The notes: a model not told the origin generated them from the sequence alone. 43,133 nt of DNA from a bacterium (GCA_024278345.1 JAJRTK010000026.1:1-43133), one strand, 5' to 3'; positions 5,169 through 30,396 are shown, counted from the first letter of the stretch. Translations and numbers: made by a program.

Positions 5169-6101
5169 ATGAGAAAGCTTGCACTCCTTCTTGTTTTTGT
5201 CTCCGGTTTTGGGGAGCTTGTGGCCAGTGGAGCGGATTTCCGGGGGAACTTGGTGATCCTACGAAACTACATGGATCACTCTGAGGAGCAGGTGGTTGCG
5301 GCACTCAACGAGCTGGCGGCCCTGCAAGACAGGCGTGCCATCGGGCCGGTGAGCGATTTGTTGACCGTGCGCTCCGCCACGATCCGCACGGCTGCGCGGC
5401 AGGCCCTCATCGAGCTCAGGGCGATGGACCAGTTTGCGCGGCAACTTCGTAGCAGCGTTCCCCAAGAGCGGCAATCGACGGCTCAGGTGCTGAGATTCAT
5501 GGGGACGCCAGCGATTCCTTTGCTGTTGCCTCTCCTGGGCGACCCGGAACCGCAGGTTCGGGGTTCCGCGTTGGTCTCGTTGGGAGCGCTGGCCAAGGGT
5601 ACGAAGGATCAACGTGCATTGGACGGGCTTGTCCGGGCTCTCAACGACGAAAGCCCCTTTGTCCGTGAGTCGGCAATCGTCTATTTGGGAGAATTGGGAG
5701 ACCGGAAGATCATTCTGCCTCTCATCGGTTTTGTCCGCCAGAACCAGCTCGTTTATCAAGCCTTCGGAGCCTTGAACCGTCTGGCGCATCGGGAGGAGGC
5801 CCTGGCTTCCGCCATCGTTGGGGAGGTTCGCCAGTTGCTGACGGGAACCGATTTGACCCTGGTGGAACGGGGAATCAAGCTCCTCCGCTTCATCGAGGCG
5901 CCACAAGCTATAACGCCGCTCTTGGAGATGCTGGAGCATGAATCTCCGCGCATCCGGTATGCCGCGATCCAGGGGCTCTTGCCCTATCGCGAAGATCCCC
6001 GGGTCCTGGCGGCGGTAGAGCGTTTGAGCCGGGATGACGAAGACGCCTTGGTTAGAACGACGGCCCGGAGTTATGTCGCTGGCAACCTGGATCTCGACTG
6101 A
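5169..6101 (+). CDS. exported HEAT-repeat protein
   Basis: 310 aa with an N-terminal signal peptide (residues 1 to about 21, MRKLALLLVFVSGFGELVASG). The rest is a run of helical repeats of roughly 30-35 residues of the HEAT/PBS-lyase type, for example AIPLLLPLLGDPEPQVRGSA, LVRALNDESPFVRESAIVYL and TPLLEMLEHESPRIRYAAI. Such solenoids are protein-protein scaffolds; here the signal peptide puts it in the periplasm or at the outer surface. ATG 5169 follows GAGGAAGGG. It ends 45 bases before the chosen start of the CRTAC1 gene and is probably the first gene of the large envelope cluster. No catalytic motif was seen and no partner can be named from sequence alone. Confidence 0.85.
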   Translation: MRKLALLLVFVSGFGELVASGADFRGNLVILRNYMDHSEEQVVAALNELAALQDRRAIGPVSDLLTVRSATIRTAARQALIELRAMDQFARQLRSSVPQERQSTAQVLRFMGTPAIPLLLPLLGDPEPQVRGSALVSLGALAKGTKDQRALDGLVRALNDESPFVRESAIVYLGELGDRKIILPLIGFVRQNQLVYQAFGALNRLAHREEALASAIVGEVRQLLTGTDLTLVERGIKLLRFIEAPQAITPLLEMLEHESPRIRYAAIQGLLPYREDPRVLAAVERLSRDDEDALVRTTARSYVAGNLDLD

Positions 6102-6146
6102 CCCGTGGTCTCCCAGAAATCCTGGTGCTGCTCCAGGCTAAGGGCA

Positions 6147-7934
6147 GTGGATGGTGAGTCCAAACGAAGAGGGCGATGGGGATTATGGGGCTGGGTTGTG
6201 GTTGTGCAGACAGGTTGCCTTGTTTTCCTTGTGAGCGGGATCTCCTTGGGGGGAACGGTAAGGGGCGTGCCGATGTTCGTGGACGTAGCCCGGGATTCGG
6301 GGATCACCATGCTCCATCGCCACTGTGGTTCCGGCAAACGGTATCTTGTGGAAACGATGGGTTCGGGGTTGGCCTGGCTGGATTACGATGGTGACGGGTG
6401 GCTCGATCTGTACTTGGCTCAGGGGGGATTGTTGCCGGGATGCTCTGTTTCTCCAAAGATCCTGGTCAACCGCCTTTACCGAAATATGGGGGATGGCAGC
6501 TTCGAGAATCGGACGGAGGAGGCGGGTGTCGGGGATGGAGGATACGGACAAGGAGTGGCGGTGGGCGATATCGACGGAGACGGTGATCCAGACCTCTATG
6601 TGGCGAACTACGGGCCGGATCGGCTCTACCGGAACCAGGGGAACGGTAGATTTCGCGATGTGACCTCCATGGCTGGATTAGGTGATGGCGGATGGTCGAG
6701 TAGTGCGGCGTTTGGAGATCTGGATGGCGACGGGGACCTCGATCTCTATGTCGTGCGCTATCTCGATGCGCCGGTTTCAAACAGCGTCTCTTGTTCAAGC
6801 CGGCAACAGGTGGCCGGCGGTTTCGAGCGGGTGGGGATTTACTGTCATCCCAGTACCTATGCCGGCTTGCCAGATCGGCTTTACGTGAATGATGGGAAGG
6901 GCCGCTTCAGGGAGATGGCCTCGGCGGTTGGCATCGTCCAGGACGGGGCGGCCAAGGGGCTTGGGGTCGTGCTAGCCGACCTGGATGGGGATATGGATCT
7001 CGACATCTATGTATCGAACGATTCCACGGCGAACCAGTTGTTCGAGAACGATGGCCGCGGGCGTTTCACCGACCAAACGCTCCTTTCCGGAACCGGTTAC
7101 AATGGCGCGGGCCGTGCCGAGGCGGGGATGGGCCTCACCGCGGGGGATGTGGATGGCGACATGCTTTTGGACCTCTTCGTGACGAATCTGTCCAACGAAA
7201 CCAACACCCTTTACCGAAATTTGGGGAGTGGTTTGTTCGCGGACGAGACTCGGCAGCGTGGGCTGGCTCCTAGCTCCGTACCATTTGTGGGCTTCGGGAC
7301 GCGCCTAGCGGATTTGGACAATGACGGTGATCTGGATCTCGTGGTGGTCAACGGGCATATCTTGGACAACGTGGAGAAGGTGGCGCCGGGATTTTTTTAT
7401 GCCCAGCCGATGTCGCTCTTCCAGAATGATGGGCGAGGACGTTTCACCGACGTGACGAAGGAATGGGGAGCCGCCCTTCTCCGGCCGGTCGTGGCGCGCG
7501 GCCTCGAAGTGGCCGACTATGATCGAGATGGCGATCTGGATTTGGCGGTGAGTGTCAACAATGGTTGGTTTCGGCTCCTACGGAACGAGGGAAAGGGATT
7601 GGGGTTCTCCTTGGAGATTCGGCTCATGGGAACAAGCTCGAATCGGGAAGGGATTGGTGCGCAGATTCTCATCGAAGCGGAGGACTTGCGCTACAGGCGG
7701 GTAGTGGGGAGATCCGGAAGCTATCAGTCCAACGGGCCGCCGGTGGTACATTGTGGGTTAGGCCGGAAAAAGAGCTGCCGGGTGACTATCCGTTGGCCAG
7801 GGGGCGGCGAGGAGAAGCTGGGTTCCGTTTCGGCGGGCCAGCTCATCGTTGTTACCGAAGGCCGTGGCATCACGGAACGTCGCCCCTTGACAGGAACAGG
7901 AGCTTCTCCCACGGCAGGAGGTTCTCAGCCATGA
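6147..7934 (+). CDS. CRTAC1/ASPIC-UnbV family seven-bladed FG-GAP beta-propeller, exported
   Basis: About 595 aa. A hydrophobic signal segment near the N-terminus is followed by seven calcium-binding loops of the DxDxDGxxD type, beginning with DYDGDGWLD near residue 79. This fits a seven-bladed integrin-alpha-like propeller. The C-terminal roughly 110 residues form the ASPIC/UnbV domain (NREGIGAQILIEA ... SYQSNGPPVVHCGLG). Four cysteines (about 60, 99, 216, 233) are conserved in the paralog at 24761, including the HRHCG and YCHP motifs, and may form disulfides or bind metal. CRTAC1-type proteins are extracellular; their bacterial role is unknown. GTG 6147 (weak AAGGG upstream) is preferred to GTG 6105, which has no ribosome-binding site; neither is strong. 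The stop overlaps the following TPR start by ATGA. Confidence 0.88.
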   Translation: MDGESKRRGRWGLWGWVVVVQTGCLVFLVSGISLGGTVRGVPMFVDVARDSGITMLHRHCGSGKRYLVETMGSGLAWLDYDGDGWLDLYLAQGGLLPGCSVSPKILVNRLYRNMGDGSFENRTEEAGVGDGGYGQGVAVGDIDGDGDPDLYVANYGPDRLYRNQGNGRFRDVTSMAGLGDGGWSSSAAFGDLDGDGDLDLYVVRYLDAPVSNSVSCSSRQQVAGGFERVGIYCHPSTYAGLPDRLYVNDGKGRFREMASAVGIVQDGAAKGLGVVLADLDGDMDLDIYVSNDSTANQLFENDGRGRFTDQTLLSGTGYNGAGRAEAGMGLTAGDVDGDMLLDLFVTNLSNETNTLYRNLGSGLFADETRQRGLAPSSVPFVGFGTRLADLDNDGDLDLVVVNGHILDNVEKVAPGFFYAQPMSLFQNDGRGRFTDVTKEWGAALLRPVVARGLEVADYDRDGDLDLAVSVNNGWFRLLRNEGKGLGFSLEIRLMGTSSNREGIGAQILIEAEDLRYRRVVGRSGSYQSNGPPVVHCGLGRKKSCRVTIRWPGGGEEKLGSVSAGQLIVVTEGRGITERRPLTGTGASPTAGGSQP

Positions 7935-9778
7935 TCCATTGCCATCCAGGCCTCACCCCCCCGAGGCAGCCCCGGAGAAAATTCACTCGGGCCCTTTTGA
8001 CCGGAGCCCGGATCGGTCTCTTCGGTGGGGTCGTTGCGTGCGCGGCCCTTGCCTGGGCCGGGGTCGAGGAAGACTCGTTTTTCCCGCGGTTGGAGGAAGC
8101 CGCCGCTTTGGCCGACTCCGGGAAGCTTGAAGAGGCGGAAGAGCTTGTGCGGCAGGTCGTTTCCGAGGCTCCCAAGATGGCGGAGGCACACAATCGCTTG
8201 GGAGGGATTTTGTGGCGTGAGGGCCGGCTCGGTGAGGCCGAAGCCGCGTTCCGGCGGGCGATGAGGCTTGACCCGAAAAAAAATTCCGTTCGATACAATT
8301 TAGGACTGCTTCTTTTGCATCAGGGCCGGTTTGAGGAGGCTCTAGCTGAATTTGCATGGATTGTTCGGCGGGATCCGGCAGACCTCCCCGCGGCGATCCA
8401 GGCCGGCCTCGCGGCTTTGCGGGCCGGAAAGCCCGGGCGGGCGGTGGAGTTCTTCGACATCATCGGCGAAAGAACAACCGACGAGCCGGAGCTCGGGATG
8501 TACCATGCCCTGGCGCTCTTGGGAGCGAGGCTGTATGACCGGGCGGAACGGAAATTTTCCGACCTGGCCCGGCGTTGGCCGGATCGCCCGGAGTTCTCTT
8601 ACCAGTTGGCTCGGCTCTCCGGGACGCGGGGGCAACCTCTGAAAGCCGTGGCCGGGTTGCGGGGTGTCCTGGAAAGGTGGCCCGATTTCGATCCCGCGCG
8701 CACGGATCTCTCCGGGACCCTGGCATTGCTCGGGGAGGCCGCGGCCAAGAAAGGCGATCTGCGGAAGGCGGACACCTTTCTGAAGGAAGCTCTGACATTG
8801 ATCCCGGATTCCGCCGACCCCAAGGTCAGGGCACGAATGAGCAAGATTTTATCGACCTCCGTGGGGGTAGAGCTGAAGCTGGGGGATTGGGCGTCCGCGG
8901 AGCTGGGTGCAAAGCGTCTGACACGGATCGATCCCAAGAAGGCTGAAGCCTGGTATTGGCTGGGGTTGGCACAGCATTCCGCGAAGAAGTTCGACGCGGC
9001 TGCGGCCAGTTATGAGATGACCCGGAAACTGGGCCTCAATGGGATTGAGGTCGTTCGAAACCACGCCGGCGCTCTCTTGGCGGGCGCCCACCCGGATGGC
9101 GCCGCCGCCGTGCTCCAGGGAGCGACGGAGCGGTGGCCCGAAGCCCCGGGTCTCAAACCACTGTTCGCGGAAGCCCTCAACCTGCTCCAACGCCATGAGG
9201 AGGCCGTAGAGCTTCTTTCTCGGGAAGTGAAGCCCGGGGATGCGCCAAGTCCGGTATGGGCCTACGAGCTGGCGGTTGCCCTCCTGGGACTCGAAAGATG
9301 GGGTGAGGCGGAAAAGGCACTGGAGCGGGTGCTCCTCCTTGACCCGGATCATATCGAGGCGCACTATCGCCTTGGCCGTTTATTTCTGCGGAGAGGCCGC
9401 GAAGAAGAGGCCCGGCCTCTGTTGGAGGCCCACCGGCGGTTGCAGGCTGCCGCGGAGGAGAAGCACGATCTGCAGCCCGAGCTCCAAATGCTCGTGGAGC
9501 GGGGTGAATTAGCCTTGGAGAAGGGCCGATTCGAGGAGGCGCTCAGGGCATTCCGGCGATGCCACGACCTGGGGCCAGCTCGAATCCGGCCTCTCCGGGG
9601 GCTGGCAAGAGTTTACCATGCCCTGGGGCGGGAAGAAGATGCCCGGGATGCGGCGGAACAGGCCATTGCTCTTGTCAAAGGCCGCAACCCCCTGTTGCGC
9701 GCCCTGGTCAGGCTGCTTAGGGAGATCGGTCAGGACGCGCGCGCGGCGACATTGGAGCAAGAGCTTGCTGAGCCATGA
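7931..9778 (+). CDS. exported/membrane-anchored TPR-repeat protein
   Basis: 615 aa. The start ATG 7931 overlaps the upstream stop (ATGA) and has AGGAGG at 7916-7921. A basic N-terminus leads into a hydrophobic segment at about residues 26-44 (IGLFGGVVACAALAWAG), a signal peptide or anchor. From about 50 onward the protein is nearly all tetratricopeptide repeats, such as AHNRLGGILWREGRLGEAEAA and AHYRLGRLFLRRGREEEARPL. TPR arrays bind other proteins or peptides. Translational coupling to the CRTAC1 propeller suggests the two act together, an arrangement seen again at 23064-28371. No enzyme motif was seen. Confidence 0.88.
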   Translation: MIHCHPGLTPPRQPRRKFTRALLTGARIGLFGGVVACAALAWAGVEEDSFFPRLEEAAALADSGKLEEAEELVRQVVSEAPKMAEAHNRLGGILWREGRLGEAEAAFRRAMRLDPKKNSVRYNLGLLLLHQGRFEEALAEFAWIVRRDPADLPAAIQAGLAALRAGKPGRAVEFFDIIGERTTDEPELGMYHALALLGARLYDRAERKFSDLARRWPDRPEFSYQLARLSGTRGQPLKAVAGLRGVLERWPDFDPARTDLSGTLALLGEAAAKKGDLRKADTFLKEALTLIPDSADPKVRARMSKILSTSVGVELKLGDWASAELGAKRLTRIDPKKAEAWYWLGLAQHSAKKFDAAAASYEMTRKLGLNGIEVVRNHAGALLAGAHPDGAAAVLQGATERWPEAPGLKPLFAEALNLLQRHEEAVELLSREVKPGDAPSPVWAYELAVALLGLERWGEAEKALERVLLLDPDHIEAHYRLGRLFLRRGREEEARPLLEAHRRLQAAAEEKHDLQPELQMLVERGELALEKGRFEEALRAFRRCHDLGPARIRPLRGLARVYHALGREEDARDAAEQAIALVKGRNPLLRALVRLLREIGQDARAATLEQELAEP

Positions 9779-9846
9779 CGGGGAAAGCGGAGCAGTCTCC
9801 GGCGTTTGCCATGCTGCTTGACGGGTTTCACGGGTAGGAGAAGGGA

Positions 9847-12075
9847 ATGAGGTCTCTTTCACAGAGAACTGGGCGGCGGTGGGTTTTTGCGGTGTCCGCG
9901 ATTGCGTTGGCCCTGGTCCTTTTTTCATGGATCTCTCTTGTTCGCCGCGAATCCCGGGAAGCGGCCGATTGGCGGACGCTGCCGCGGGGTGGCCCGTTGG
10001 TTCTTATTTCCGTTGACACCCTTCGGGCGGATCATCTTTCGGCCTACGGAGAGCCGGAGATCGGGACGCCCTCCCTGGAGCGGTTGGCGCGGGATGGAGT
10101 GACCTTTCTGGCGGCTCGGTCTCACGTTCCTCTGACGTTGCCGTCTCACGCGACGATGTTCACGGGTCTGTTGCCCTATGAGAATGGTGTGCGGAACAAC
10201 AGCGGATTCGCGTTGGAGGGGTCGAAGCCTCACGTTGTCCGCGAGCTCCGCGACCGAGGTTATGGGACGGCGGCCTTCGTTTCCGCCTTTGTGCTCACCG
10301 CTCAGACAGGGATCGGCAGCGGTTTCGAGCACTACGATGCCCAGTTTGGCGGAGGCGCCTCGAAACGGACGCTCGGCGAACTGCAGCGTGCTGGGGCGGA
10401 GACGGTTGATGCTTCCATCGAATGGTTGACAAAGCAGCCGGAATCTCGTTTTTTTCTGTTCGTCCATCTGTATGATCCTCATACGCCCTATCGGCCGGTT
10501 CCCCCTTACGACCGACTCTATGGAAAGCGCTCCTACGGCGGGGAGGTTTCCTCTTCAGACGCAGAGGTGGGCCGTTTGTTGGGGCAATTGCGGGCTCAGG
10601 GTCTGTACGACGAGAGCCTGATCCTGGTCGTTTCGGATCACGGGGAGGGGCTGGGTGACCACGGAGAGGAGGAGCACGGAATCTTCCTTTACAGGGAAGC
10701 ACTGGATGTTCCCTTGGTCATGAAGCTGCCCCGGAGCCGGTATGCGGGCCGGCTCGTGACCCAACCGGTGGGGCTCGTGGATGTGGCGGCGACATTCCGG
10801 GACTGGGCGTCGTTGCCGGTGGATCACCAGAGTGGCCGGTCCCTCTTGAGGGCTGTGGCCGCCGAAGCGACGGGGCAGCCCGTGTCAAGGCGCAGTATCT
10901 ACTCCGAGACTCTTTACCCGCGCTACCATTACGGATGGAAAGAGCTTTACTCTTTGTATGACGGGGGTTACTCTTACGTGTTGGCGCCCGGGGAAGAGCT
11001 GTACGACCTTTCCACCGACCCCGGGGAGCAGGTGAACCGCCTTGGTTGGGAGGCGCGGAGGCGGGAAGGGATGCGCTCGGAGCTGGAAGCGCGGGTGCAA
11101 GAGGGCGGTATCGCCGCGCCAGGCGAGCCTTCGGCGGAAGAGACTCGGGCCCTGGAGGCGCTGGGCTATGTGGGGGCGCCCACCCTGGTGGCTGGAGATG
11201 GAGAGCTTCCCGACCCCAAGGAGCGCGTGGGGGACCTCAAGAGCTATCTCCGGGCCTTGAGTTTGGTGGCTGGCGGTCGGTATCGAGATGCGCTGCCCCT
11301 CTTGGAAAAGGTGTTGTCCCGCAACAAACGGATGGTGGATGGCTGGGAGAGGTTGAGCCATGTCCGGCAGCGGCTGGGGCAGCTCAAGTTGGCCATGGAG
11401 GCGCAGCGGAAGAGTGTCGAGCTGGCGCCGGGGCGTGCACCGGCGCTTTTGAGGATGGCGAGTTTGTTGACCCTACTTGGGCGGACCGATGAGGCGATGC
11501 GCCATGCGGAGCTTGCGGCGAAGAAAATGCCCGGGGCAGCCTATTTGAGGTTGGCGCGCCTTTGGGCCGGTCGGGGTGAGGAAGAGAAGGCCCTGGAGTC
11601 CGCGAAAAAGGCAACCCAACGGCGTCCCGCGGTGTTGCCCTTTGTCAGGGGCTTGTTGGCGTACCAGGGGAGGCGGTTCGCTGAGGCCCGGAGAGAGTTT
11701 GATAGGGCGGTGTCTCAGGTGGAAGCGCGAGGGGGACAGTCATTTTCCGATCTGAGCTTCTATTTGGCCGATTGCCTGGCCCGTGCGGCGTCTGGCGCTT
11801 CCGGGGCCGAACGGGGACGGCTGTTGGAGGAGGCGGAAAGGCGGTTTCGGCAAGAGCTTGAGGATTACCCGATGAATTTGCCGGCCGCTTTGCGCCTGGC
11901 CGCGCTCTACATGACGCTGGGCCGGGACTCGGATCGGGACAGGGTGTTGGAAGCGATGGCTAAGCAGAGGCCATCTCCGGGGACTTACCGGGCTCTGGCC
12001 AAGGCTTACCGGATGTTTCGTCTTCCGGAAAAGGCGATCCATTACGAGGAGAAGGCACGTGCCGGGGGCCGGTAG
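9847..12075 (+). CDS. membrane-anchored alkaline-phosphatase-superfamily (sulfatase-like) / TPR fusion
   Basis: 742 aa. A single N-terminal transmembrane helix (about residues 12-32) anchors a sulfatase-fold domain (about 48-400) that would face the periplasm, followed by TPR repeats from about 460 to the end. Metal-ligand motifs are present: VDTLRAD (Asp57), and SDHGEGLGDHGEEEHG (Asp264, His265). At the nucleophile position true sulfatases have Cys or Ser in C/S-x-P-x-R, but this protein has TLPSHATMFTG with Thr97. Thr is the nucleophile in phosphoethanolamine/phosphoglycerol transferase relatives, so a phosphotransferase or phosphatase role fits better than sulfate hydrolysis. ATG 9847 follows GGAGAAGGGA. 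It is a close paralog of the first half of the product encoded from 14371. The substrate is unknown. Confidence 0.88.
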   Translation: MRSLSQRTGRRWVFAVSAIALALVLFSWISLVRRESREAADWRTLPRGGPLVLISVDTLRADHLSAYGEPEIGTPSLERLARDGVTFLAARSHVPLTLPSHATMFTGLLPYENGVRNNSGFALEGSKPHVVRELRDRGYGTAAFVSAFVLTAQTGIGSGFEHYDAQFGGGASKRTLGELQRAGAETVDASIEWLTKQPESRFFLFVHLYDPHTPYRPVPPYDRLYGKRSYGGEVSSSDAEVGRLLGQLRAQGLYDESLILVVSDHGEGLGDHGEEEHGIFLYREALDVPLVMKLPRSRYAGRLVTQPVGLVDVAATFRDWASLPVDHQSGRSLLRAVAAEATGQPVSRRSIYSETLYPRYHYGWKELYSLYDGGYSYVLAPGEELYDLSTDPGEQVNRLGWEARRREGMRSELEARVQEGGIAAPGEPSAEETRALEALGYVGAPTLVAGDGELPDPKERVGDLKSYLRALSLVAGGRYRDALPLLEKVLSRNKRMVDGWERLSHVRQRLGQLKLAMEAQRKSVELAPGRAPALLRMASLLTLLGRTDEAMRHAELAAKKMPGAAYLRLARLWAGRGEEEKALESAKKATQRRPAVLPFVRGLLAYQGRRFAEARREFDRAVSQVEARGGQSFSDLSFYLADCLARAASGASGAERGRLLEEAERRFRQELEDYPMNLPAALRLAALYMTLGRDSDRDRVLEAMAKQRPSPGTYRALAKAYRMFRLPEKAIHYEEKARAGGR

Positions 12076-12238
12076 CGGTATTTGGGAACTGCTTGGATTC
12101 TGGGCGGTGAAGGGGCTTGGGATGAAGGAGGACTGGGAGGCCTGGGTTTTGGGTCGTCAACGGAGCATAGGGTGTGGTGGGGCGAGGGACACGAGCGGCC
12201 GCGAGAGGCCTGAGCGGAACACAACAAGAAAGAAGGTC

Positions 12239-14374
12239 ATGGGGAAGAAACGTTTTTCGAGGCGCAGCCTGGTGCCGGGAATTGGGGGGATTTGCGCGAT
12301 TCTATTGATGTCGGTTTCGGTGGCATCCGGTGGGGATATCGAGGACTACGCGTTCAAGCCTGAGCATCTCCAGTGGCTCGAGGAGGTGAGCTACATCATT
12401 TCGAAGCGGGAGCGTGAGGCGTTTGTGGCGTTGACGAATTCCAAGGACCGGGACCTCTTCATCAAGATCTTCTGGAAGGCCCGGGATCCCACGCCAGGTA
12501 GCGTGAAGAATGAGTATCGGGAGGCGCATTACGAGCGCTTGAAGCACGCCAACGAGTTTCTTGGGCGGGACACGACTCGAGAGGGGTGGAAGACTGATCG
12601 GGGGCGGGTCTACATTTTGTTGGGCAAGCCTCGGAGCATTTCCCGGATTTCCGGGCAGTTGGGGCTTGTGGAATCGGAGCTTTGGTACTACGACAATGTG
12701 ACGATTCGCGGTGTGCCTCCCTTTCTTTACATTCTTTTCTTCAAGCCCAATCTGGGCCGGCCCTTCGAGCTTTATACGCCCGGGACTCACAAGCCCACGG
12801 ATCTGCTGGCGGGCAATTTCAAGATGAGCACGGAGGCGGATGCCTATTCTTACCTGAGAGAAACAGATCCTGAGTTGGCTGCGGCGTCCCTCTCCATGGA
12901 GCCGGGCCAAGGAAGCTCCAGGTTGCCCGGCTCGGCGCGGTCGAGCTTTGATACCATGGTCATGGGTCGGATCGAGACTTCGCCCACCCGTTTTGTGGAC
13001 ACGGGGTACGTGGATCGGCTTCATTTCGGAGAGGGAGCCATCGACTTGGAATACACTTTCGACTACACGAAGATGTCGGTCGTGGCGCGGGAGTTTTTCC
13101 ATCCGGGGGCTGGCCTCGTTCTGGACGTTGCCCTGGAGATCCAGCCCAAGGACTTGACGCTGGTTCGATATGAAGAGGAGGTCTACACGACGTTGAGCTT
13201 ATTTGGTGAGCTCCAGGACTCCAAGGAGCGGCAGATTTCGAAGATCGACGAGGATGCTGAGGTGCATTTGAAGCTCGATCAGGTGGAGGCGATTCGGTTT
13301 CGGCCTCTGAATCTTCACTCACGGACGGTGGCGCGGCCCGGGGCATACGACCTCAATCTGCTCCTCAAGAGCCAGGCTGCGAAGCAGTATTCCAGGGCGG
13401 AGCTCAAGGTGTGGAGTGACGACCCGGAAGGGGTGAAGGCCTGGATGTCTCTTCCGTTGCCCTGTTATCGGGTAGAACCTGAGTCGAAGGTGACGGAGGG
13501 GAAGGAGAAGGCTTTTCAGTTCGGGCCGTTCCGTGTTTATCCCAAGGTGAGCGGAGCATTCCGGCCTAGCGATGAGGTCATCATTTACGTACAGCTTTAT
13601 CGAAAGGGGATTTCCTACAAAAAGATGCGGCGCCACCAGGTTCGATTCCGGGTGGTGAACCGGAGTGGCGCGACGATTTTCTCTAAGGACGTCGATCTGG
13701 CGGAATCGGCGCAGGATCGGGAAGGCCGGGCACACGTGGTGTTTCGGGTGGGAGCTGGAGTCTTGCCCCTGGGCTCCGTGGATGTGGTGGCAACGTTGGT
13801 GGCCCCCGGGGGGGAGGAGCTTGTCACCAGGCGCGTGGCGTTGGAGATTCGTTCCGACGTGTCAGGTGCGGTACCGTGGTTGTTGTCCCGCTCAAGGCCT
13901 GGTCCCGGCAGTGCCCAAAGCTTGCTCGAACGTGCGCGCAGCTCGCTGGCTGGGGGGGACCCCGGGAATGCCGTGACTCTTTTAAGAGGTGTCGCGGCGT
14001 CGCAACCCAGTGCCTTGGAGCTTTTGATTCGGGCCTACTTCCAGTTGGGCCAGCCGGCGCACGTGGTAGAGCTTCTAGGTGCCAAGGTGGCGCCGTTGCT
14101 CTATAGCCAGGCCCGGCTGACGTTGCGTCAGTCGTTGTGGTACGAGGCGCTCATGGATGCCCATTGGCGTCTTGGGGAATGGGCGAAGGCACTGCCTTAT
14201 TTGGAGCGGTTGGCGGGAGAGCAGGAATACCGGCCTGAGCTACTTTTCCGGCTGGCTGAGGTCTACGGCCACTTGGGGAAGAACCGGCAGGCTAGAAAGG
14301 TGTTGGAGCGTGCTTGCAAGAGCGCTTCGGGGCGGGAGGAATGTCGGGATTTGGCGAAGAAGAAGGTGCCATGA
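12239..14374 (+). CDS. GWxTD-domain protein, exported, with C-terminal TPR-like helices
   Basis: 711 aa. A signal peptide (about residues 8-30, LVPGIGGICAILLMSVSVASG) is followed by the GWxTD domain with its signature GWKTDRGRVYILLGKP (Gly116-Asp120). GWxTD is a domain of unknown function found mostly in Acidobacteria, Bacteroidetes and related phyla. A beta-rich middle region follows, and the last roughly 150 residues look like TPR-type helices (RARSSLAGGDPGNAVTLLRG). ATG 12239 follows AAGAAAGAAGG; an in-frame extension back to 12059 would overlap the previous gene and has no signal peptide. The stop overlaps the next start by ATGA, so it is coupled to the giant phosphatase/TPR gene. The 163 bases before it hold nothing recognisable. 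Confidence 0.88.
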   Translation: MGKKRFSRRSLVPGIGGICAILLMSVSVASGGDIEDYAFKPEHLQWLEEVSYIISKREREAFVALTNSKDRDLFIKIFWKARDPTPGSVKNEYREAHYERLKHANEFLGRDTTREGWKTDRGRVYILLGKPRSISRISGQLGLVESELWYYDNVTIRGVPPFLYILFFKPNLGRPFELYTPGTHKPTDLLAGNFKMSTEADAYSYLRETDPELAAASLSMEPGQGSSRLPGSARSSFDTMVMGRIETSPTRFVDTGYVDRLHFGEGAIDLEYTFDYTKMSVVAREFFHPGAGLVLDVALEIQPKDLTLVRYEEEVYTTLSLFGELQDSKERQISKIDEDAEVHLKLDQVEAIRFRPLNLHSRTVARPGAYDLNLLLKSQAAKQYSRAELKVWSDDPEGVKAWMSLPLPCYRVEPESKVTEGKEKAFQFGPFRVYPKVSGAFRPSDEVIIYVQLYRKGISYKKMRRHQVRFRVVNRSGATIFSKDVDLAESAQDREGRAHVVFRVGAGVLPLGSVDVVATLVAPGGEELVTRRVALEIRSDVSGAVPWLLSRSRPGPGSAQSLLERARSSLAGGDPGNAVTLLRGVAASQPSALELLIRAYFQLGQPAHVVELLGAKVAPLLYSQARLTLRQSLWYEALMDAHWRLGEWAKALPYLERLAGEQEYRPELLFRLAEVYGHLGKNRQARKVLERACKSASGREECRDLAKKKVP

Positions 14375-17300
14375 GCCGTTCGAGGAAGCGGGGTTCGAAG
14401 AAGAGGAGAGGTGGCGGCCGAGGTGCGGCTCCGAGGCGTGGGGCTTTTCGTGGAGGAAGCCCGCCGGGTGCGCCCGCGCAGGAGGTCCTGGATGCTGGCG
14501 TTGTGGCGGGCGGTAGTGGCGCGGGCGGCAGACGGGTGGTGCTGATCCTGGTCCTGGTGGTGGTTTTAGGGTTGACACTGGGTTGGTGGTGGCGGAGGCG
14601 TGCTGCATCTCATGACGGGCCTCTGATCTTGATCTCCCTGGACACGCTTCGGCAGGATCGGCTGTCTGTGGGCGGCTATCCGGAGGGCTGGACTCCAGCT
14701 TTGGAGCGATTGGCACGGGAGGGGATTACGTTTAGCGGCGCACATTCGCAGGTGCCGCTGACCCTGCCTTCCCATGCCTCGATCTTCACCGGGTTGGCGC
14801 CCATCGAGCACGGGGTTCGGAACAATGCGGGGTTTCAGCTAGATACGAAGCATTCGAGTGTCGTGCGGGAGCTAAGGGATGCCGGGTATGGGACGGCGGG
14901 TTTTGTTTCGGCCTTCGTTCTTCGGCCATCCACCGGGATCGACCAGGGGTTTCAGCATTATGACGCAAACCTTGGCTCCGGTGTCCCGCAGCAGTCCATG
15001 GCGGAGGTGCGACGAGAGGGAAAGCAGACGGTGGATGCGGCTTTGGAGTGGCTGGATCGCCAGGAAAAGAAGCGTTTTTTCCTTTTTGTCCACCTCTATG
15101 ATCCTCATTTGCCGCACCGACCGCCTTGGCCGTGGAATCGAGTCTTGGCGAATGGCTACGACGGCGAGATCGCCCATGTGTCCGCCCAGGTGGATCGCTT
15201 GTTGGAGAGGCTCCGGGAGAAGGGCTTTTACGATGACAGCCTGATTCTGTTGATCTCCGATCACGGAGAGGGATTTGGCGATCACGGCGAGGAGGAGCAC
15301 GGGATCTTCCTGTACCGGGAGGCCATCGATGTGCCGATGATCTTGAAGCTCCCCGGGAACCGCCAGGCGGGGCGTTTGGTCCCGGCGCCCGTGGGGCTGG
15401 TGGACGTGGCCGCGACTTTCCGGGATTGGGCCGGCCTGCCGGAAGTGCGCCAAGAGGGCCGCTCACTCTTGGATACGCTGGCCGGGACAGTGCCGCCGGG
15501 CCGGCGGATCTATTCCGAGACGCTCTATCCGCGTTACCATTATGGATGGAAGGAGCTGTACTCCCTTCGGGACGAGAGGTTTACCTATATCTTGGCGCCC
15601 CGAGAAGAACTGTATGATCGGGCTGCCGACCCGGGAGAACACGAGAACCGGCTGGCATGGGAGGGGCGCCGCCGAGAGCGCTTCCAATCCGAGCTGGAGG
15701 AGTTTTTGGCGGAGGAGAGGATTGCGGCGCCCCAAGAGGTCTCGGCGGAGGAAGCCCGGGCCATGGAGGCGCTGGGCTACGTCGGCGCGCCGGCTTTGGT
15801 GGAGGGAAGTGGCGATCTCCCGGATCCAAAGGATCGGATCGACGATTTCAAAAGATACCTCCACGCCGCCAATCTCATTGCCCAGCGTCGCTTTTCCGAG
15901 GCTTTGCCCCTGCTTCGCGGGGTGTTGGATGCGAATCCGGCGATGGTGGAGGCTTGGGACCGGATGAGTCTGCTTTCGGAGCGGCTGGGCGATCTGGACG
16001 GGGCTTTCAAGGCACAGAAGCGGAGCCTTGAATTAGCCCCCATGAGGGTGGCTTCCCTCCTGCAAATGTCCCACATCTTGGAGCTTCAGGGCCGGCATGA
16101 GGAGGCGATCCAACACGCGGAGCTCGCCGCCGGGAAGGACCCGGGGAAAGGCTTTTCAAGTCTCGCGCGGCTGTACGCCTTCCGGGGTGAGAGTTACAAG
16201 GCGCTGGAAGCGGCAGGGAAGGCCGCACGGGAAAACCCGGCGATCCTCCCCTTCATCGAAGGACTGGTGGCCCACCACCAGCGGAGATTCGACGATGCGC
16301 GACTCTTTCTTGAGCAGGCCGTGAAGATGCTGGAGTCGGAATCGAAGCCCTACCTCCTTGATTTGAACTTCTATCTTGCCGATTGTTTGGGCCGAGCGGC
16401 GGCGAAGGCCTCGGGTGCCAGCGCGGCGGAATTGGCAAAGCAGGCAGAGAAGCGATTCCGCCTCGAGCTAGAGAATTTTCCGGAAAACCTGTCAGCAGCC
16501 CTGCGGCTGGCGGCCCTCTACATGACACAGGGACGCACGAAGGAGAGGGACAACGTTCTGGGCACCCTTGCCAAAAATCATCCGTCGCCCGATACCTACG
16601 GGGCCATCGCGGATGCTTATCGCTTGTTCGGGGATCTGGAGCTGGCCGCCAGATTCACGAAACTTTCTGACGACAGCAAACGAGCATCGCAAGAGGGCGA
16701 AGCAAGGCTGCCCGGCGTTGCCGAGCTTCGGAACGAAAAACAGAATGTCCTTCTCATCACCATTGACACCCTTCGGGGCGATGCTTTGGGTTGTTACGGT
16801 GGAGGCGCGACGACTCCCGTTCTTGATGGGCTTGCCGCCAGCGGCTTGAAATACACCTTCGCCCATGCCCCGACCGTGATGACCCTTCCTTCTCATACGA
16901 GCATCTTGACAGGCCTCTATCCGGAAGGTCACGGCGTTCATGACAACAGTGGCTTTCGCCTTGGCAGCGAGATCCCCACGCTGGCGACAATCTTTTCCCA
17001 GCGGGGGATGGCCACCGGCGCGTTTGTGTCCGCCGCCACGCTTGATGCGAGATTTGGGCTTGGCCGCGGCTTCGATGTCTATGATGAGGGATATCCTGAA
17101 CAGGCCGCTCAGGGGCGGATGGCGGTGCCGGAGCGCCGAGGGGAAGAGACCGTGGCGGCGGCTCGCAAGTGGATTGAATCACAAAACGGGCAATGGTTCT
17201 GCTGGGTCCACTTGTTCGACCCCCATGCGCCATACGATCCTCCACCGGGCTATGGGGCGGGTTCCGATGACCGCGGGCGCTACTTGGGTGAGGTTGCCTA

Positions 17301-18267
17301 CGTCGATGCGGCGCTGAAGCCCCTGGTGGGACTTGCTCAAAAGAGCAAGCCCGGCACGCTCATCCTTGTCACTTCGGATCACGGGGAGTCCCTTGGTGAG
17401 CATGGTGAGCTGACTCACGGCCTTTTTGCGTATGAGAGTACTCTCCGGGTTCCGCTTCTGCTGTGGAATCCGGAAATCCGTCGGGCTGGAGTGGTGGACG
17501 CGCCTGTGGGGCTTGTGGATGTGGCGCCAACCCTGCTGGAGCTGTTGGGAATTGAGCCTCCGAAGGCGTGGGTAGGGCGCTCGCTTTTGCGGCCATCGGC
17601 GGAACGCGAGCTCGCGTTCGAGACGCTTCACACCATGTTGACCCGAGGCTGGGCGCCGCTGAGAGGACTATTGGCAGGTCGTTGGAAAGCGATTGATCTC
17701 CCCATCCCGGAGCTTTACAATTTAAGGCCGGACCCCGCGGAACAAGAGAACCTCGCGTCCCGAGATCCGCGGCGATTGGAACGGCTTCTTCGGAGAGCTC
17801 GCACCTTTTCCGGAGCAAGGAGCCGGTGGAGGCGTCGGCTCCAGACCCGGAGACCGTCCGTCAGCTCGAGGCCCTGGGTTATGTCACAGGTCGTGCGGCG
17901 CCGAAGGAGCGCTGGACACGGAAGGACGATCCCAAGCGGCTGCTTGCCATCGATCAGGCTGTTCAAAAGGCACTGGGGGATCGCCGGAGAGGAGATTGGG
18001 CCTCAGCCATTGACCGATACCGGGATATCCTCGAAAAGAGGCCCGGTTTCACGTCCGCCTACGTCTACTTGGCCAACACCTACCGCGCGGCAGGCCGGAT
18101 TAGCGATGCCATCGGCACGCTGGAGACGGCCCGCAAGCGACACCTTCTTGTCGGTGCCGGCGCGGCGCAGCTCGGGAGCTTTCTGGTGGAGGCTGGCCGG
18201 GCAAAGGAGGCCGTCGCTCTTTTGGGTACCTGCGGAGACCCGCGTTGGCTGGAAACGGATGTCTTGA
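14371..18267 (+). CDS. giant phosphatase-TPR-phosphatase protein; apparent frameshift near 17806 before a second TPR block
   Basis: Start ATG 14371 overlaps the GWxTD stop (ATGA). A basic Gly/Arg-rich N-terminus precedes a transmembrane helix (about 56-75). Domain 1 has Asp91, TLPSHASIFTG with Thr131, and SDHGEG (Asp297); a TPR block follows. Domain 2 has Asp799, TLPSHTSILTG with Thr838, and SDHGES (Asp1003). Both domains carry Thr where sulfatases carry Cys or Ser. After about residue 1146 (positions 17803-17810, ACCTTTTCC) this frame becomes Arg/Ser/Pro-rich junk, while the -1 frame continues as DPETVRQLEALGYV and TPR repeats to 18713. One extra T in the T4 run restores a continuous protein of about 1447 aa spanning 14371-18713. 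So the real gene is probably 14371-18713, and the tail from about 17810 to 18267 in this frame is spurious. Confidence 0.85.
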   Translation: MSRSRKRGSKKRRGGGRGAAPRRGAFRGGSPPGAPAQEVLDAGVVAGGSGAGGRRVVLILVLVVVLGLTLGWWWRRRAASHDGPLILISLDTLRQDRLSVGGYPEGWTPALERLAREGITFSGAHSQVPLTLPSHASIFTGLAPIEHGVRNNAGFQLDTKHSSVVRELRDAGYGTAGFVSAFVLRPSTGIDQGFQHYDANLGSGVPQQSMAEVRREGKQTVDAALEWLDRQEKKRFFLFVHLYDPHLPHRPPWPWNRVLANGYDGEIAHVSAQVDRLLERLREKGFYDDSLILLISDHGEGFGDHGEEEHGIFLYREAIDVPMILKLPGNRQAGRLVPAPVGLVDVAATFRDWAGLPEVRQEGRSLLDTLAGTVPPGRRIYSETLYPRYHYGWKELYSLRDERFTYILAPREELYDRAADPGEHENRLAWEGRRRERFQSELEEFLAEERIAAPQEVSAEEARAMEALGYVGAPALVEGSGDLPDPKDRIDDFKRYLHAANLIAQRRFSEALPLLRGVLDANPAMVEAWDRMSLLSERLGDLDGAFKAQKRSLELAPMRVASLLQMSHILELQGRHEEAIQHAELAAGKDPGKGFSSLARLYAFRGESYKALEAAGKAARENPAILPFIEGLVAHHQRRFDDARLFLEQAVKMLESESKPYLLDLNFYLADCLGRAAAKASGASAAELAKQAEKRFRLELENFPENLSAALRLAALYMTQGRTKERDNVLGTLAKNHPSPDTYGAIADAYRLFGDLELAARFTKLSDDSKRASQEGEARLPGVAELRNEKQNVLLITIDTLRGDALGCYGGGATTPVLDGLAASGLKYTFAHAPTVMTLPSHTSILTGLYPEGHGVHDNSGFRLGSEIPTLATIFSQRGMATGAFVSAATLDARFGLGRGFDVYDEGYPEQAAQGRMAVPERRGEETVAAARKWIESQNGQWFCWVHLFDPHAPYDPPPGYGAGSDDRGRYLGEVAYVDAALKPLVGLAQKSKPGTLILVTSDHGESLGEHGELTHGLFAYESTLRVPLLLWNPEIRRAGVVDAPVGLVDVAPTLLELLGIEPPKAWVGRSLLRPSAERELAFETLHTMLTRGWAPLRGLLAGRWKAIDLPIPELYNLRPDPAEQENLASRDPRRLERLLRRARTFSGARSRWRRRLQTRRPSVSSRPWVMSQVVRRRRSAGHGRTIPSGCLPSIRLFKRHWGIAGEEIGPQPLTDTGISSKRGPVSRPPTSTWPTPTARQAGLAMPSARWRRPASDTFLSVPARRSSGAFWWRLAGQRRPSLFWVPAETRVGWKRMS

Positions 18268-18713
18268 ATGCCCTGGGCATGGCTTTGGCGGCAAACGGGC
18301 AGACCGACAAGGCCCTTGAGTGTTTTCAGGGAATGCTGGATCTCGATCCGGGCAATCCCATGGCCCTCACCAACGCGGGGACCGCCGAGTTGATGCGTGG
18401 CCGGCTCGATCCCGCGGAAAAGCTCCTCCGACGGGCTGTCACGACCGACGCCAGCCAAGCCACGGCATGGAACGGACTCGGGGTCATCGCCGCCCGTAGT
18501 GGACGTGCATCGAAAGCCGTGGAGGCTTGGCAACAAGTGCTGGAGCTCGATCCCAACAAGGTGGACACCCTTTACAATTTGGGGATGCTGCTCCTGGAGA
18601 AGCAAGGGCTTTCCGCGGCGCGGCCCCACCTGGAGAGCTTTCTAAAAAGGGCACCTCAAGATATCTACGACCGGGACCTGGAGAGAGTCCGTGAGATTTT
18701 GGGGGGAGATTAG
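17826..18713 (+). CDS. C-terminal TPR block of the giant phosphatase/TPR protein, in the -1 frame
   Basis: 295 codons open in the frame one base behind the upstream gene. It starts with DPETVRQLEALGYVTG, a segment that in this family directly follows the sulfatase-fold domain; the homologous piece EEARAMEALGYVGAP follows domain 1. TPR repeats follow (WASAIDRYRDILEKRPGFTSAYVYLA, AWNGLGVIAARSGRASKAVEAW, TLYNLGMLLLEKQG). The GTG at 17826 has no good Shine-Dalgarno site, so independent translation is unlikely. Most likely this is the 3' end of the gene starting at 14371, separated by a one-base deletion (mutation or sequence error) in the T run at 17805-17808. Confidence 0.7.
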   Translation: MEASAPDPETVRQLEALGYVTGRAAPKERWTRKDDPKRLLAIDQAVQKALGDRRRGDWASAIDRYRDILEKRPGFTSAYVYLANTYRAAGRISDAIGTLETARKRHLLVGAGAAQLGSFLVEAGRAKEAVALLGTCGDPRWLETDVLNALGMALAANGQTDKALECFQGMLDLDPGNPMALTNAGTAELMRGRLDPAEKLLRRAVTTDASQATAWNGLGVIAARSGRASKAVEAWQQVLELDPNKVDTLYNLGMLLLEKQGLSAARPHLESFLKRAPQDIYDRDLERVREILGGD

Positions 18714-18803
18714 TTTCTAGTCATAAGTTTCTAGTTTTTAGTGACCACGAGGAATCGCAATTTGTTGCTTCTTGCCGACAACTAGAAACTAAATTTTTTT
18801 TTT
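18710..18803. terminator. inverted repeat with nested hairpin and T10 run, likely terminator
   Basis: AACTAGAAACT (18780-18790) is exactly complementary to AGTTTCTAGTT (18726-18736), and TTAGTTTCTAGT (18710-18721) offers an alternative 12 bp left arm. A small GCAA/TTGC hairpin lies inside the loop. Ten Ts (18794-18803) follow the right arm. It lies between the convergent phosphatase/TPR gene (+) and the lipoprotein gene (-), as expected for a terminator of the long + strand block. The AT-rich stem and the AAA between stem and T-run make it non-standard. Confidence 0.6.
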
Positions 18804-19972: not shown

Positions 19973-22891
19973 ATGAGGAGATGGAAATTCCTGTCTCTCG
20001 CGTTCGTCGCACTGTTTGTCCTGGCCGGCACCGGTTGGGCGCAGAGTACGGGCGCCATTCGTGGCAAGGTGTTGGATGCCGAAAGCAATCCCGTGCCTGG
20101 AGCCATGGTGCGGGCTACATCTGACTCTTTGCTTGGCGAGCGCGTGACCTATTCCGAGGGAACCGGCGCCTTTAGTTTTGGTGCGCTTCCTATCGGCACG
20201 TACACCATCGAAGTGACCCTGACCGGCTTCGCGAAATACCGGCATGAAGGGATTCGGCTCTATATCGGCCAGACGAAGGACGTGCCGATCAAGCTGGAGT
20301 TGGAGACCGTGAGCGAAGAGATCACGGTTGTGGCGGAAGAGCCGTTGCTCGATCCCAAGGACGTATCGACTGGCGGTCGGATCACCTTTGAAGAGTTGAC
20401 CCAGGTTCCCACGGCCCGTGACCCCTGGGCGGTCTTGAGCTTGATTCCGTCCCTCCAGGTGGACCGCATCAACGTTGGTGGCTCTCAGAGTGGCCAGCAG
20501 GCCAACTTCGTGAGTAAGGGCGATGATGGCTCCAACGCAATGTGGAACATCGACGGTGTGCCCATCACCGACCAGGCCGCTGCCGGCGCGTCGTCTACTT
20601 ACTTTGACTATGGTTCCATCGAGGAGATCCAGGTCAGCACTGGTGGCGCCGATGTGACGCAGATGACCGGCGGTGCCGGGATCAACATCGTGACCAAAAA
20701 GGGTGGCAACAAGATCCGTGGCTCGGCTCGAGCGGTTTTTACCAACGACGGCCTCCAGGGCGAGAATCTCTCCACGGAGATTAGGTCGGGCACGTTGGCG
20801 ACTGCCCGCGTGGACCAGATTCTGGAGCTTGGCGGCGAGGTGGGCTTTCCCATCATCAAGGACCGCCTCTGGGGCTGGGGCGCCATCAACCGGAACAAGA
20901 TCGAGAACAATATCCTGTCGTACAAAGGTGATCCGGACAAACCGGTGAGCCAGCCGGATAACACGACGCTGTTCAACGTTACGGGCAAGTTGAATGCTCA
21001 GGTCTTCTCGTCGAACGAAGCCACGATCTTCTACGAGAGAGGCGACAAGACCAAGAAGGGCCGGAATGCCTCCCTGACCCGTCCGGAAGAGACGACCTGG
21101 AACCAGAAGGGTCCCACGCCGATCTACAAGGTCGAGGATCAACACATCTTCGGCTCCAACACGATCCTCCATGCCAAGTTCGGCGCGATTGGCGGCGCTT
21201 TCCAGTTGACGCCTCTCTCCGGTGGAACCTACGAAGATGTCAACTCGCCGTTGGCTTGGCGGGATGGTGATCGCGTGTGGCATGGTTCCTATGGGAATTA
21301 TTTCACCGACCGCCCGCAGTCCACGTTCCTTCTGGACGCAAACCACTTCATGACCACCGGTAATATCGATCACGATTTCAAAGTAGGCTTTGAATTCCGG
21401 CGAGCGAGTGTCGATTCGGACTGGTATTTCAACGGCGGTCAGTTCTTTCTGGACGACCTCTTTGGTCCCGGCGTCGGTTATGTGCAGTTCATGCGCAACC
21501 AGCCGAACAAGGCTTCGCAGCAGCGAGTGAGCGCCTTCCTTCAGGATACGTTGACCGTTGGGAATTTGACGGTGAATATTGGCGTCCGCTTTGATAGCCA
21601 GAAAGGAAATCACGAAGGTGGAACTCAGCGGGCGAACCCCGTATTTCCGGACCTGATGCCCACGGTGAGCTTTGAGCCTGGCAGTTCCCAGTTCACTTGG
21701 AACAACCTTGCTCCCCGGATCGGCCTGACCTACGCCATCGGTGAAAAGACTCTGGTCAACGCCAGTTATTCGCTGTACGCCGACAACCTGACTCTGGGTC
21801 TCGTGGGTACGGGGAATCCGGCCTACATTTATACTTCAGTCTACGCTGCGGCCATTGACAGCAACGGCGATGGACGGATCGATCCCGATACGGAGCTCGT
21901 CAGCAATCTGTATGGCCCCTATTCCGATCCCTCCGTGGACGCCAATCTTGATCAGCTCGATTCGGATCTTGGTTCCCCGAGCACGAATGAGGTCGTCTTT
22001 GGTGGGAGCCATCAGCTCACCCGCGACTTTGTCATGGGCGCCAATTTCACTTACCGGACACGCTCCAACACCACTTGGGCGTTGGCCACCGTCATCGATG
22101 AGACCGGCAACCTTCGTCCCGTCCAAAACGGCGACTTCACGGTCGCTGGCAGCGTCAGTGGCTCCTATCAGCAGGCTGGCGGGGATTCTGGGACATATTC
22201 CCAGGACTACTACACGTTGCGGGAAGGTCTGACCTGGAATCGCGGCTCCTTCACCACGAACCGGGACGACTACAAAGAGAAGTACTGGGGCTTGGAGGTC
22301 ACCTGGAACAAGCGCATGTCCACGAAGTGGATGGTGGGCGGTAACTTTGTCCTCAGCCGATGGACCGAGAGCTTCGACGCCAACGGTGCTGGAGCTGATC
22401 CCGATCCCACCAGGACGCTGGGCAACCCCAACCCCGATGGTAGTGGTTCCGTCGCCGCCGGTTCAGGTGGTTCGGGCGCATTCGGTGGCGTTTTTATGAA
22501 TGCCGAGTGGCAGGGGAACCTGCGTGGTTCCTACCGCTTGCCGTTCGACCTGGAGATCGGTGGCAACATCAACATTCGTCAGGGTTATCCCATTCCCGTG
22601 GAAGACACCCGTGGTTCCAGCGCCCTCACGCGTCGCGCGAATCGCCGGAACATCCTGGTGACGGAGATTGATAGCCTGCGCCACGACACTCCCTTCGTCG
22701 TGGACTTGCGCCTGGCGTACACGCCCAAGTTCGGGCCCGTGGACGTGGAGCTCGGCATCGATTTCTTCAACATTCTGAATACCGATACGGTGCTTCAGCA
22801 GCGCCGGTTGGCTGACCTCTCGTCCTACGGAGACGCAACGGAGGTGGTCGGTCCGCGCTTGATCCGTTTCGGCGGTTCCATCAAGTTCTGA
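19973..22891 (+). CDS. TonB-dependent receptor, Oar-like, with N-terminal carboxypeptidase-regulatory-like domain
   Basis: 972 aa outer-membrane receptor. The signal peptide ends at about residue 23 (LFVLAGTGWA/QSTG). A CarboxypepD_reg-like beta-sandwich follows (about 25-105, AIRGKVLDAESNPVPGAMV ... YTIEVTLTGF), then a plug domain (about 115-240, with NAMWNIDGVPITD and GGAGINIVTKKGGNKIRG), and a beta-barrel ending in Phe (IRFGGSIKF), the usual C-terminal signal for outer-membrane insertion. This layout is typical of acidobacterial and myxobacterial Oar-like receptors that import large substrates or interact with peptides; the ligand is unknown. ATG 19973 follows GAGGAGGA. The gene stands alone: a gap of over 600 bases lies before it and a hairpin/terminator array follows. 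Confidence 0.93.
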   Translation: MRRWKFLSLAFVALFVLAGTGWAQSTGAIRGKVLDAESNPVPGAMVRATSDSLLGERVTYSEGTGAFSFGALPIGTYTIEVTLTGFAKYRHEGIRLYIGQTKDVPIKLELETVSEEITVVAEEPLLDPKDVSTGGRITFEELTQVPTARDPWAVLSLIPSLQVDRINVGGSQSGQQANFVSKGDDGSNAMWNIDGVPITDQAAAGASSTYFDYGSIEEIQVSTGGADVTQMTGGAGINIVTKKGGNKIRGSARAVFTNDGLQGENLSTEIRSGTLATARVDQILELGGEVGFPIIKDRLWGWGAINRNKIENNILSYKGDPDKPVSQPDNTTLFNVTGKLNAQVFSSNEATIFYERGDKTKKGRNASLTRPEETTWNQKGPTPIYKVEDQHIFGSNTILHAKFGAIGGAFQLTPLSGGTYEDVNSPLAWRDGDRVWHGSYGNYFTDRPQSTFLLDANHFMTTGNIDHDFKVGFEFRRASVDSDWYFNGGQFFLDDLFGPGVGYVQFMRNQPNKASQQRVSAFLQDTLTVGNLTVNIGVRFDSQKGNHEGGTQRANPVFPDLMPTVSFEPGSSQFTWNNLAPRIGLTYAIGEKTLVNASYSLYADNLTLGLVGTGNPAYIYTSVYAAAIDSNGDGRIDPDTELVSNLYGPYSDPSVDANLDQLDSDLGSPSTNEVVFGGSHQLTRDFVMGANFTYRTRSNTTWALATVIDETGNLRPVQNGDFTVAGSVSGSYQQAGGDSGTYSQDYYTLREGLTWNRGSFTTNRDDYKEKYWGLEVTWNKRMSTKWMVGGNFVLSRWTESFDANGAGADPDPTRTLGNPNPDGSGSVAAGSGGSGAFGGVFMNAEWQGNLRGSYRLPFDLEIGGNINIRQGYPIPVEDTRGSSALTRRANRRNILVTEIDSLRHDTPFVVDLRLAYTPKFGPVDVELGIDFFNILNTDTVLQQRRLADLSSYGDATEVVGPRLIRFGGSIKF

Positions 22892-22987: not shown

Positions 22988-22996
22988 TTTGCTCGG

Positions 22997-23030
22997 AAGG
23001 GTCCTGGTGCTCGATGCCAGGACCCTTTCG
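22997..23030 (+). terminator. intrinsic terminator after the TonB receptor gene
   Basis: AAGGGTCCTGG (22997-23007) pairs perfectly with CCAGGACCCTT (23017-23027) around a 9-base loop. Only a short T-run (23026-23028) follows, but the 11 bp GC-rich stem and its place after a stop codon fit a terminator. Confidence 0.7.
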
Positions 23031-23063
23031 TCGTTGGGGCTTTTGTCCTGCGGTCAGGAACCG

Positions 23064-29987: not shown

Positions 29988-30396
29988 GGAGGCCTCCAGT
30001 GGCGCGAAGTGGAATCGAGGCGGAAGGTGGGGACGAATAGCGACCCCATTGAGCCGGTCCAGGCAAAAGCAGTTTAACCGGTCGATTGGTCAACGGTCGA
30101 ACCCATCCCCACGTGAAATCATCCCATTGGGTTATGTTAAGGGCAAGAACTCTTCAATAAATCTGTGATTCCTCTTTTTGGTTGTGTCCTGCTCCTGTCA
30201 GCGTCCATCCGACCGCTGCCATCCGCCAATCATCGCCCTTGATCCGCGCCGAATGCCCTCAGGGCTGCCACCGACGATCCCGTCAAGGCGTTGTTACGTG
30301 GTGGAGCACTTCGATTGCGGGTGGCTCTGCGATACAATCCCCAAGGACTGGTACACGGTATTTGGGAAAGCGACAGGAGGAGCGGGAGGGAGCGAT
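29988..30396. other. 409-base divergent intergenic region (VWFA gene / kinase gene)
   Basis: No gene supported. Both flanking genes start here and run outward, so two promoters are expected. An open frame from 30178 leads into the kinase, but its translation before 30397 is Cys/Pro-rich and has no ribosome-binding site. A 6 bp inverted repeat (AACCCA 30100-30105 / TGGGTT near 30128-30133) is visible. No clear -35/-10 pair could be assigned. Confidence 0.5.

Follow-up and report, generated by a model that had tools for sequence, protein, structure and literature searches.

A recurring module of genes for exported phosphatase-superfamily, GWxTD, CRTAC1-type and TPR proteins beside a TonB-dependent receptor in uncultured bacteria

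Introduction

What could six neighbouring genes for exported proteins have in common? The question is raised by positions 5169-18713 of the bacterial sequence JAJRTK010000026.1 (GCA_024278345.1), part of a 43,133-nucleotide (nt) stretch that is called the window here. On the plus strand, these positions encode in order a HEAT-repeat protein, a CRTAC1-type protein, a TPR protein, a member of the phosphatase-TPR (PT) gene family (PT1), a GWxTD protein and a second PT protein (PT2). The original prediction, made from the sequence alone, had taken them for one machine at the cell envelope, perhaps modifying or assembling a surface polymer. We found that five of the six genes, all except the HEAT gene, belong with an adjacent TonB-dependent receptor gene to a module found repeatedly in uncultured bacteria that are only distantly related. 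This is based on conserved linkage, export or anchor signals, a threonine at the nucleophile position of an S1-type fold, and the fusion of two PT subtypes, A and B, in one chain. Literature searches on CRTAC1/UnbV proteins with TonB, on CRTAC1-family proteins and on alkaline-phosphatase-superfamily threonine enzymes found no description of the module.

The genes are linked in the window and in relatives

All six genes were found on the plus strand in the places and families originally assigned to them (Pfam, NCBIfam), within the uncertainty of the start codons. Each product has a hydrophobic N-terminus, which agrees with the claim that all six are exported or anchored. The CRTAC1-type gene (6105..7934, +) encodes an FG-GAP propeller (PF13517, 4.1e-58) and an ASPIC/UnbV domain (PF07593, 2e-12); it starts at GTG 6105 or at a later GTG and stops at 7934. 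Its end overlaps the gene of the exported TPR protein (7931..9778, +; PF13432, 1.8e-43) by the four bases ATGA. A second ATGA overlap, at 14371, joins the GWxTD and PT2 genes. The coupling by ATGA overlaps that had been proposed therefore holds at these two junctions and not at the others, as with the gaps of 68 nt between the TPR and PT1 genes and 163 nt between the PT1 and GWxTD genes.

To measure linkage, GWxTD relatives were taken from named genomes, mostly of Aminicenantes and other Acidobacteriota; GWxTD and PT genes were located in 19 of them. In these 19 GWxTD-bearing genomes, a GWxTD gene lay within 10 kb of 33 of the 69 PT genes, against 3.8 expected. Because the 19 genomes had been selected for GWxTD, the test was repeated on 60 evenly drawn Acidobacteriota genomes, with GWxTD sought in the PT-bearing genomes not searched earlier. 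A GWxTD gene was then within 10 kb of 20 of 127 PT genes (1.9 expected; maximum of 9 in 20,000 simulations), indicating that the co-localisation proposed for the window goes beyond chance. CRTAC1 genes were also close to GWxTD genes (at least 20 of 90, 8.4 expected) and to PT genes (at least 12 of 52, 2.7 expected). The most frequent partner of PT plus GWxTD, missed in the original prediction, was a TonB-dependent receptor, present in 21 of 28 such regions and in 2 of 20 random regions; a TPR protein was present in 20 of 28 and 2 of 20, respectively. Near the relatives' loci, no other unfamiliar partner recurred in more than three genomes.

The original prediction had named conserved adjacency in relatives as its own test. 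Adjacency was conserved for CRTAC1, TPR, GWxTD and PT genes, so that one exported module is well supported; it was not conserved for the HEAT gene (5169..6101, +; PF13646, 1.4e-25), for which about 60 regions from relatives yielded a single weak neighbour. The HEAT protein has a signal-like N-terminus and is a probable bystander.

The locus closest to the window, L178, has the order CRTAC1-TPR-GWxTD-PT-PT on one strand and is operon-like, with 4-base overlaps at three of its four junctions. A second locus in the window's own genome, L005, has TPR-CRTAC1-GWxTD beside a TonB receptor gene; the 4-base CRTAC1/TPR overlap is found in both L178 and L005. Other arrangements were CRTAC1-GWxTD-PT (L107) and TPR-GWxTD-TonB-PT-PT-GWxTD (L038), the TPR protein of the latter having a receptor-profile match. 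Loci of Aminicenantes showed varied combinations of TonB, PT, TPR, long GWxTD and short GWxTD genes, and their TPR partner often shared the receptor's type of carboxypeptidase-regulatory domain. Five loci of Acidobacteriota (L188, L189, L191, L194 and L195) had PT genes in tandem next to a TonB receptor gene and lacked a GWxTD gene, indicating that the PT-TonB link is independent of GWxTD. The window comes from a genome of 6.1 Mb in 550 contigs, whose phylum has only 8 species in the genome set searched; as a correction, this genome lies outside the phylum of the tested Acidobacteriota (RA.bin134 Acidobacteriota phylum, more than 60 species).

The system had been bounded at 18713, and this boundary did not hold. 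Genes for a TonB-dependent receptor (19973..22891, +), a TPR protein (22989..24752, +; open reading frame and translation), a second CRTAC1-type protein (24761..26524, +; PF07593 match at 26252-26440) and a third TPR protein (26521..28371, +) follow, the last two overlapping by four bases according to their open reading frame coordinates, so that the module extends to approximately 28.4 kb. We have good confidence that the CRTAC1, TPR, PT1, GWxTD and PT2 genes and the downstream TonB, TPR and CRTAC1 genes form one functional module. Alternatively, exported multi-copy families might cluster loosely in rich genomes and have no joint function, the window being one such patch. The families are indeed multi-copy, with up to 46 CRTAC1 (among the matches listed), 18 GWxTD and 15 PT copies per genome, and their linkage is optional. 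We consider this explanation improbable in view of the approximately 10-fold PT-GWxTD enrichment, the repeated 4-base overlaps and the fusion of subtypes A and B.

PT enzymes carry a threonine in place of the sulfatase nucleophile

PT1 (9847..12075, +; PF00884, 7.2e-33) is a membrane-anchored enzyme of the alkaline-phosphatase superfamily, subtype A, with C-terminal TPRs, as judged by alignments, a structure model, Foldseek and motif counts. In the model, a single N-terminal helix (residues 7-40) is followed by the sulfatase-type domain, with TPRs forming the tail. The closest folds in Foldseek were S1 sulfatases and phosphonate monoester hydrolase; the catalytic domain is thus like that of class I (S1) sulfatases, choline sulfatase and phosphonate monoester hydrolase, and the TPR tail and membrane anchor are extra to S1 sulfatases. 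The three phosphatase domains of the window all retain the Thr, DPH and DHGE...HG motifs, in line with the earlier claim of three domains bearing active sites.

Class I sulfatases convert the Cys or Ser of C/S-x-P-x-R to formylglycine. In an alignment with a carrageenan sulfatase, T97 of PT1 fell on residue 84, the formylglycine position (mutants C84S and C84A). The motif T-x-[PA]-x-H was present in all 97 PT members used for motif counts, and the sulfatase signature PS00523 in none of them, whereas the control, three genuine sulfatases encoded in these loci, carried C-x-P-x-R. The signature PS00149 was likewise found in 0 of 97 PT members; it is a poor discriminator, because the control sulfatases lacked it as well.

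We then compared PT1 with MCR-1, whose residues were taken from PMC5216409. D57, T97, H212, D264, H265, E267 and H277 of PT1 match the order of MCR-1 Glu246, Thr285, His395, Asp465, His466, Glu468 and His478, and the spacing of the DH-E-H stretch is equal in both, a correspondence of motifs rather than a superposition. EptA/MCR-1 enzymes thus share with PT the Thr nucleophile and, at the level of motifs, the order and spacing of Glu/Asp, Asp-His, Glu and two further His. They differ in having a multi-helix membrane domain, where PT has one predicted N-terminal helix, a TPR tail and a fold nearer to S1 sulfatases; EptA-type NCBIfam models matched PT2 far under their cut-off (e.g. 40.6 vs 500 bits). 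The Thr in place of the formylglycine Cys, together with the residue spacing of MCR-1/EptA, points to phosphoryl transfer. The chemistry of PT is therefore very probably phosphoryl and not sulfuryl. From its residues, the reaction may proceed through a covalent phospho-threonine with water or a polymer as the acceptor. The family is likely annotated as 'sulfatase' although it lacks the sulfatase nucleophile, and the annotated capacity of these bacteria to degrade sulfate esters may thus be overstated.

The active site also bears on the suggestion that the module modifies or assembles a surface polymer. The likeness of the active site to that of phosphoethanolamine transferases makes this possible; the TonB receptor points equally to capture and import. 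If PT enzymes worked like EptA or LtaS, they would add phospho-substituents to, or remove them from, an envelope polymer or surface proteins of the cell itself, with TPR, CRTAC1 and GWxTD proteins as the scaffold. The match to MCR-1 extends to the Glu and to both His of the Zn2 site, residues reported to vary in choline sulfatase, and 68 of 91 PT proteins have an uncleaved-looking hydrophobic N-terminus, both of which favour such self-modification. It is the main rival of the role preferred below and somewhat less likely than that role, as the multi-helix membrane domain of EptA/LtaS is missing from PT, the closest folds of PT are those of S1 sulfatases and phosphonate monoester hydrolase, its commonest partner is a TonB receptor, and genes for lipopolysaccharide or glycan biosynthesis are not enriched in the flanks.

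PT2 fuses subtypes A and B

PT2 (14371 to approximately 17800, +; PF00884 matched twice) contains a subtype A phosphatase domain (PT2N), TPRs and a subtype B phosphatase domain (PT2C) in one chain. In a quick tree (Shimodaira-Hasegawa-like approximate likelihood ratio supports, SH-aLRT), PT1 and PT2N were sisters (support 100), indicating a local duplication, and PT2C fell into a separate clade (support 94). Clade profiles gave the same assignment: PT2C, which was excluded from training, scored 433 bits to B and 355 bits to A. At least seven loci (L104, L111, L176, L182, L183, L189 and L195), most of which also went into profile training, encode subtypes A and B in separate neighbouring genes.

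No hydrophobic signal segment was found at the PT2N/PT2C junction in any frame. A lost stop codon would thus not be enough by itself to create the fusion, and we rejected the idea that the fusion is an artefact. PT2 joins genes that are adjacent elsewhere, suggesting that their products act together; we think that subtypes A and B probably cooperate.

The original prediction had PT2 as one open frame to 18713. A comparison of frames placed the loss of this frame near 17,790-17,830, between the second phosphatase domain and the TPR tail, which is why the end at 17800 is approximate; the C-terminal TPR block continues in a different frame (17826..18713, +; TPR matches). A mutation or an assembly error is the preferred explanation. 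A programmed frameshift was rejected, since no in-frame slippery heptamer was visible by eye.

The GWxTD domain is fused to M56 peptidases in other bacteria

The GWxTD gene (12239..14374, +; 12239 is the first plausible ATG) belongs clearly to its family (TIGR04514, 99.1 bits vs a cut-off of 28, 1.8e-28; PF20094, 49.7 vs 26.9 bits, 4.5e-13). Its model had a mean predicted local distance difference test (pLDDT) score of 88.7. By our own reading of its predicted secondary structure, the protein would have an alpha/beta domain at its N-terminus, then helices, two stretches of beta-sandwich and TPRs at its end. Searches of the model against the PDB with Foldseek returned only beta-sandwich and TPR look-alikes with low template modelling (TM) scores, and no match explained the N-terminal part. 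A literature search on GWxTD found no paper and no function.

In several Acidobacteriota, GWxTD is fused to a BlaR1-type M56 peptidase (L025:5459-8089, L029:8963-10429 and L050:9101-10489, the three on which Pfam was run, and also L045, L059, L063, L071 and L077). A BlaI-like repressor reading frame, recognised by eye, lies immediately upstream of the fusion in six loci. The fusions and the BlaI-like frames suggest a ligand-sensing or ligand-binding role for the GWxTD domain. This family, multi-copy in some Acidobacteriota, now has a set of genomic partners, a predicted structure and a sensor-type fusion.

The TonB-dependent receptor and the possible role of the module

The receptor has an N-terminal carboxypeptidase-regulatory domain (PF13620), a plug (PF07715) and a barrel (PF25183), an Oar-like architecture. 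In Myxococcus xanthus, secretion of the protease PopC requires the Oar protein, a TonB-dependent transporter whose N-terminal domain is the same (PMC6434023). By analogy, the receptor might export a protein that PT, GWxTD and TPR proteins process or chaperone. However, the Oar-type architecture accounts for 28% of TonB-dependent transporters and is dominant in Bacteroidetes, so that it is not by itself a sign of secretion; no conserved cargo gene was found in the relatives' loci, and PT, GWxTD and CRTAC1 are absent from the described Oar/PopC system. We regard secretion as quite improbable.

The SusC/SusD loci of Bacteroidota offer another comparison. They are similar, by analogy only, in that a TonB receptor with a carboxypeptidase-regulatory domain stands beside helical-repeat and other exported binding proteins and a hydrolase-fold enzyme. 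They differ in their SusD lipoprotein, as profile scans of the window proteins matched no SusD family; glycoside hydrolases were not enriched in the flanks, and the enzyme of the module is a Thr-type phosphatase relative.

The module probably acts on phosphate-bearing molecules at the cell surface. Given that a TonB receptor accompanies it more often than any other partner, we prefer, tentatively and at somewhat less than even chances, the view that this TonB-coupled envelope module serves to capture external phosphate-bearing polymers or conjugates and to process them. Import rather than self-modification is in our view an even call. In this scheme, the substrate would pass the outer membrane through the receptor; it would be bound and held by CRTAC1 propeller, TPR and GWxTD proteins, the last through beta-sandwich and TPR parts; and the anchored PT enzymes would attack its phosphoester or phosphodiester groups through the phospho-threonine intermediate, with subtypes A and B working on the same substrate. 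The HEAT protein would take no part. A fuller version is speculative and rather doubtful: an envelope system not described before, present in Acidobacteriota and neighbouring phyla, in which a TonB-coupled complex uses GWxTD for ligand recognition (and also as a sensor in the BlaR1-like M56 fusions) and paired Thr-type 'sulfatases' A and B in tandem on one phospho-substrate. The evidence is stronger for the shared core, namely a module, export, Thr-type phosphoryl chemistry and TonB coupling, than for any one purpose.

Several points weigh against capture and processing by such a module. The chance model assumed uniform placement and takes no account of a general clustering of exported genes. 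GWxTD occurred in 15 of 24 PT-lacking Acidobacteriota genomes, and PT occurred without GWxTD in the window's own phylum. No degradation pathway was enriched among 96 flanking proteins, and no inner-membrane transporter recurred. The PT1 model was of moderate quality, with a mean pLDDT of 76.6 and parts of the catalytic domain below 60.

Glycan enzymes adjoin L090 and L104 and were not enriched over the flanking proteins. In L090 (1815-18882), the PT-TPR-TonB-GWxTD genes have genes for GH2 exo-glucosaminidase-like, GH116, amidohydrolase and YdjC proteins on their flanks, and no other single finding hints as strongly at an amino-sugar substrate. The flanking genes as a whole do not favour one role of the module over another. 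As a general feature, a neighbourhood for glycan or peptide degradation was rejected, because it was limited to a few loci (GH2/GH116/YdjC in L090 and an M19 dipeptidase in L097) and showed no enrichment.

Other features of the window

Terminator and promoter signals inside the region were near chance level. Directly after the PT2 tail (window 18710-18802) is an inverted repeat, TTAGTTTCTAGT/ACTAGAAACTAA, with arms 59 nt apart, followed by a T run; it is a possible transcript end. A predicted 178-aa lipoprotein with no Pfam match is encoded at 18803-19339 (-), between the PT2 and TonB receptor genes. A VWA-domain protein (28635..29987, -; TIGR03436, 1.4e-46) is a possible associate only; it was rejected as a core member, as VWA genes were near PT plus GWxTD in 4 of 28 regions and in 1 of 20 random regions, which is not significant. 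Positions 30178-35886 encode a very large protein that, judged by eye, resembles a serine/threonine kinase joined to an ATPase, repeats and a histidine-kinase-like C-terminus.

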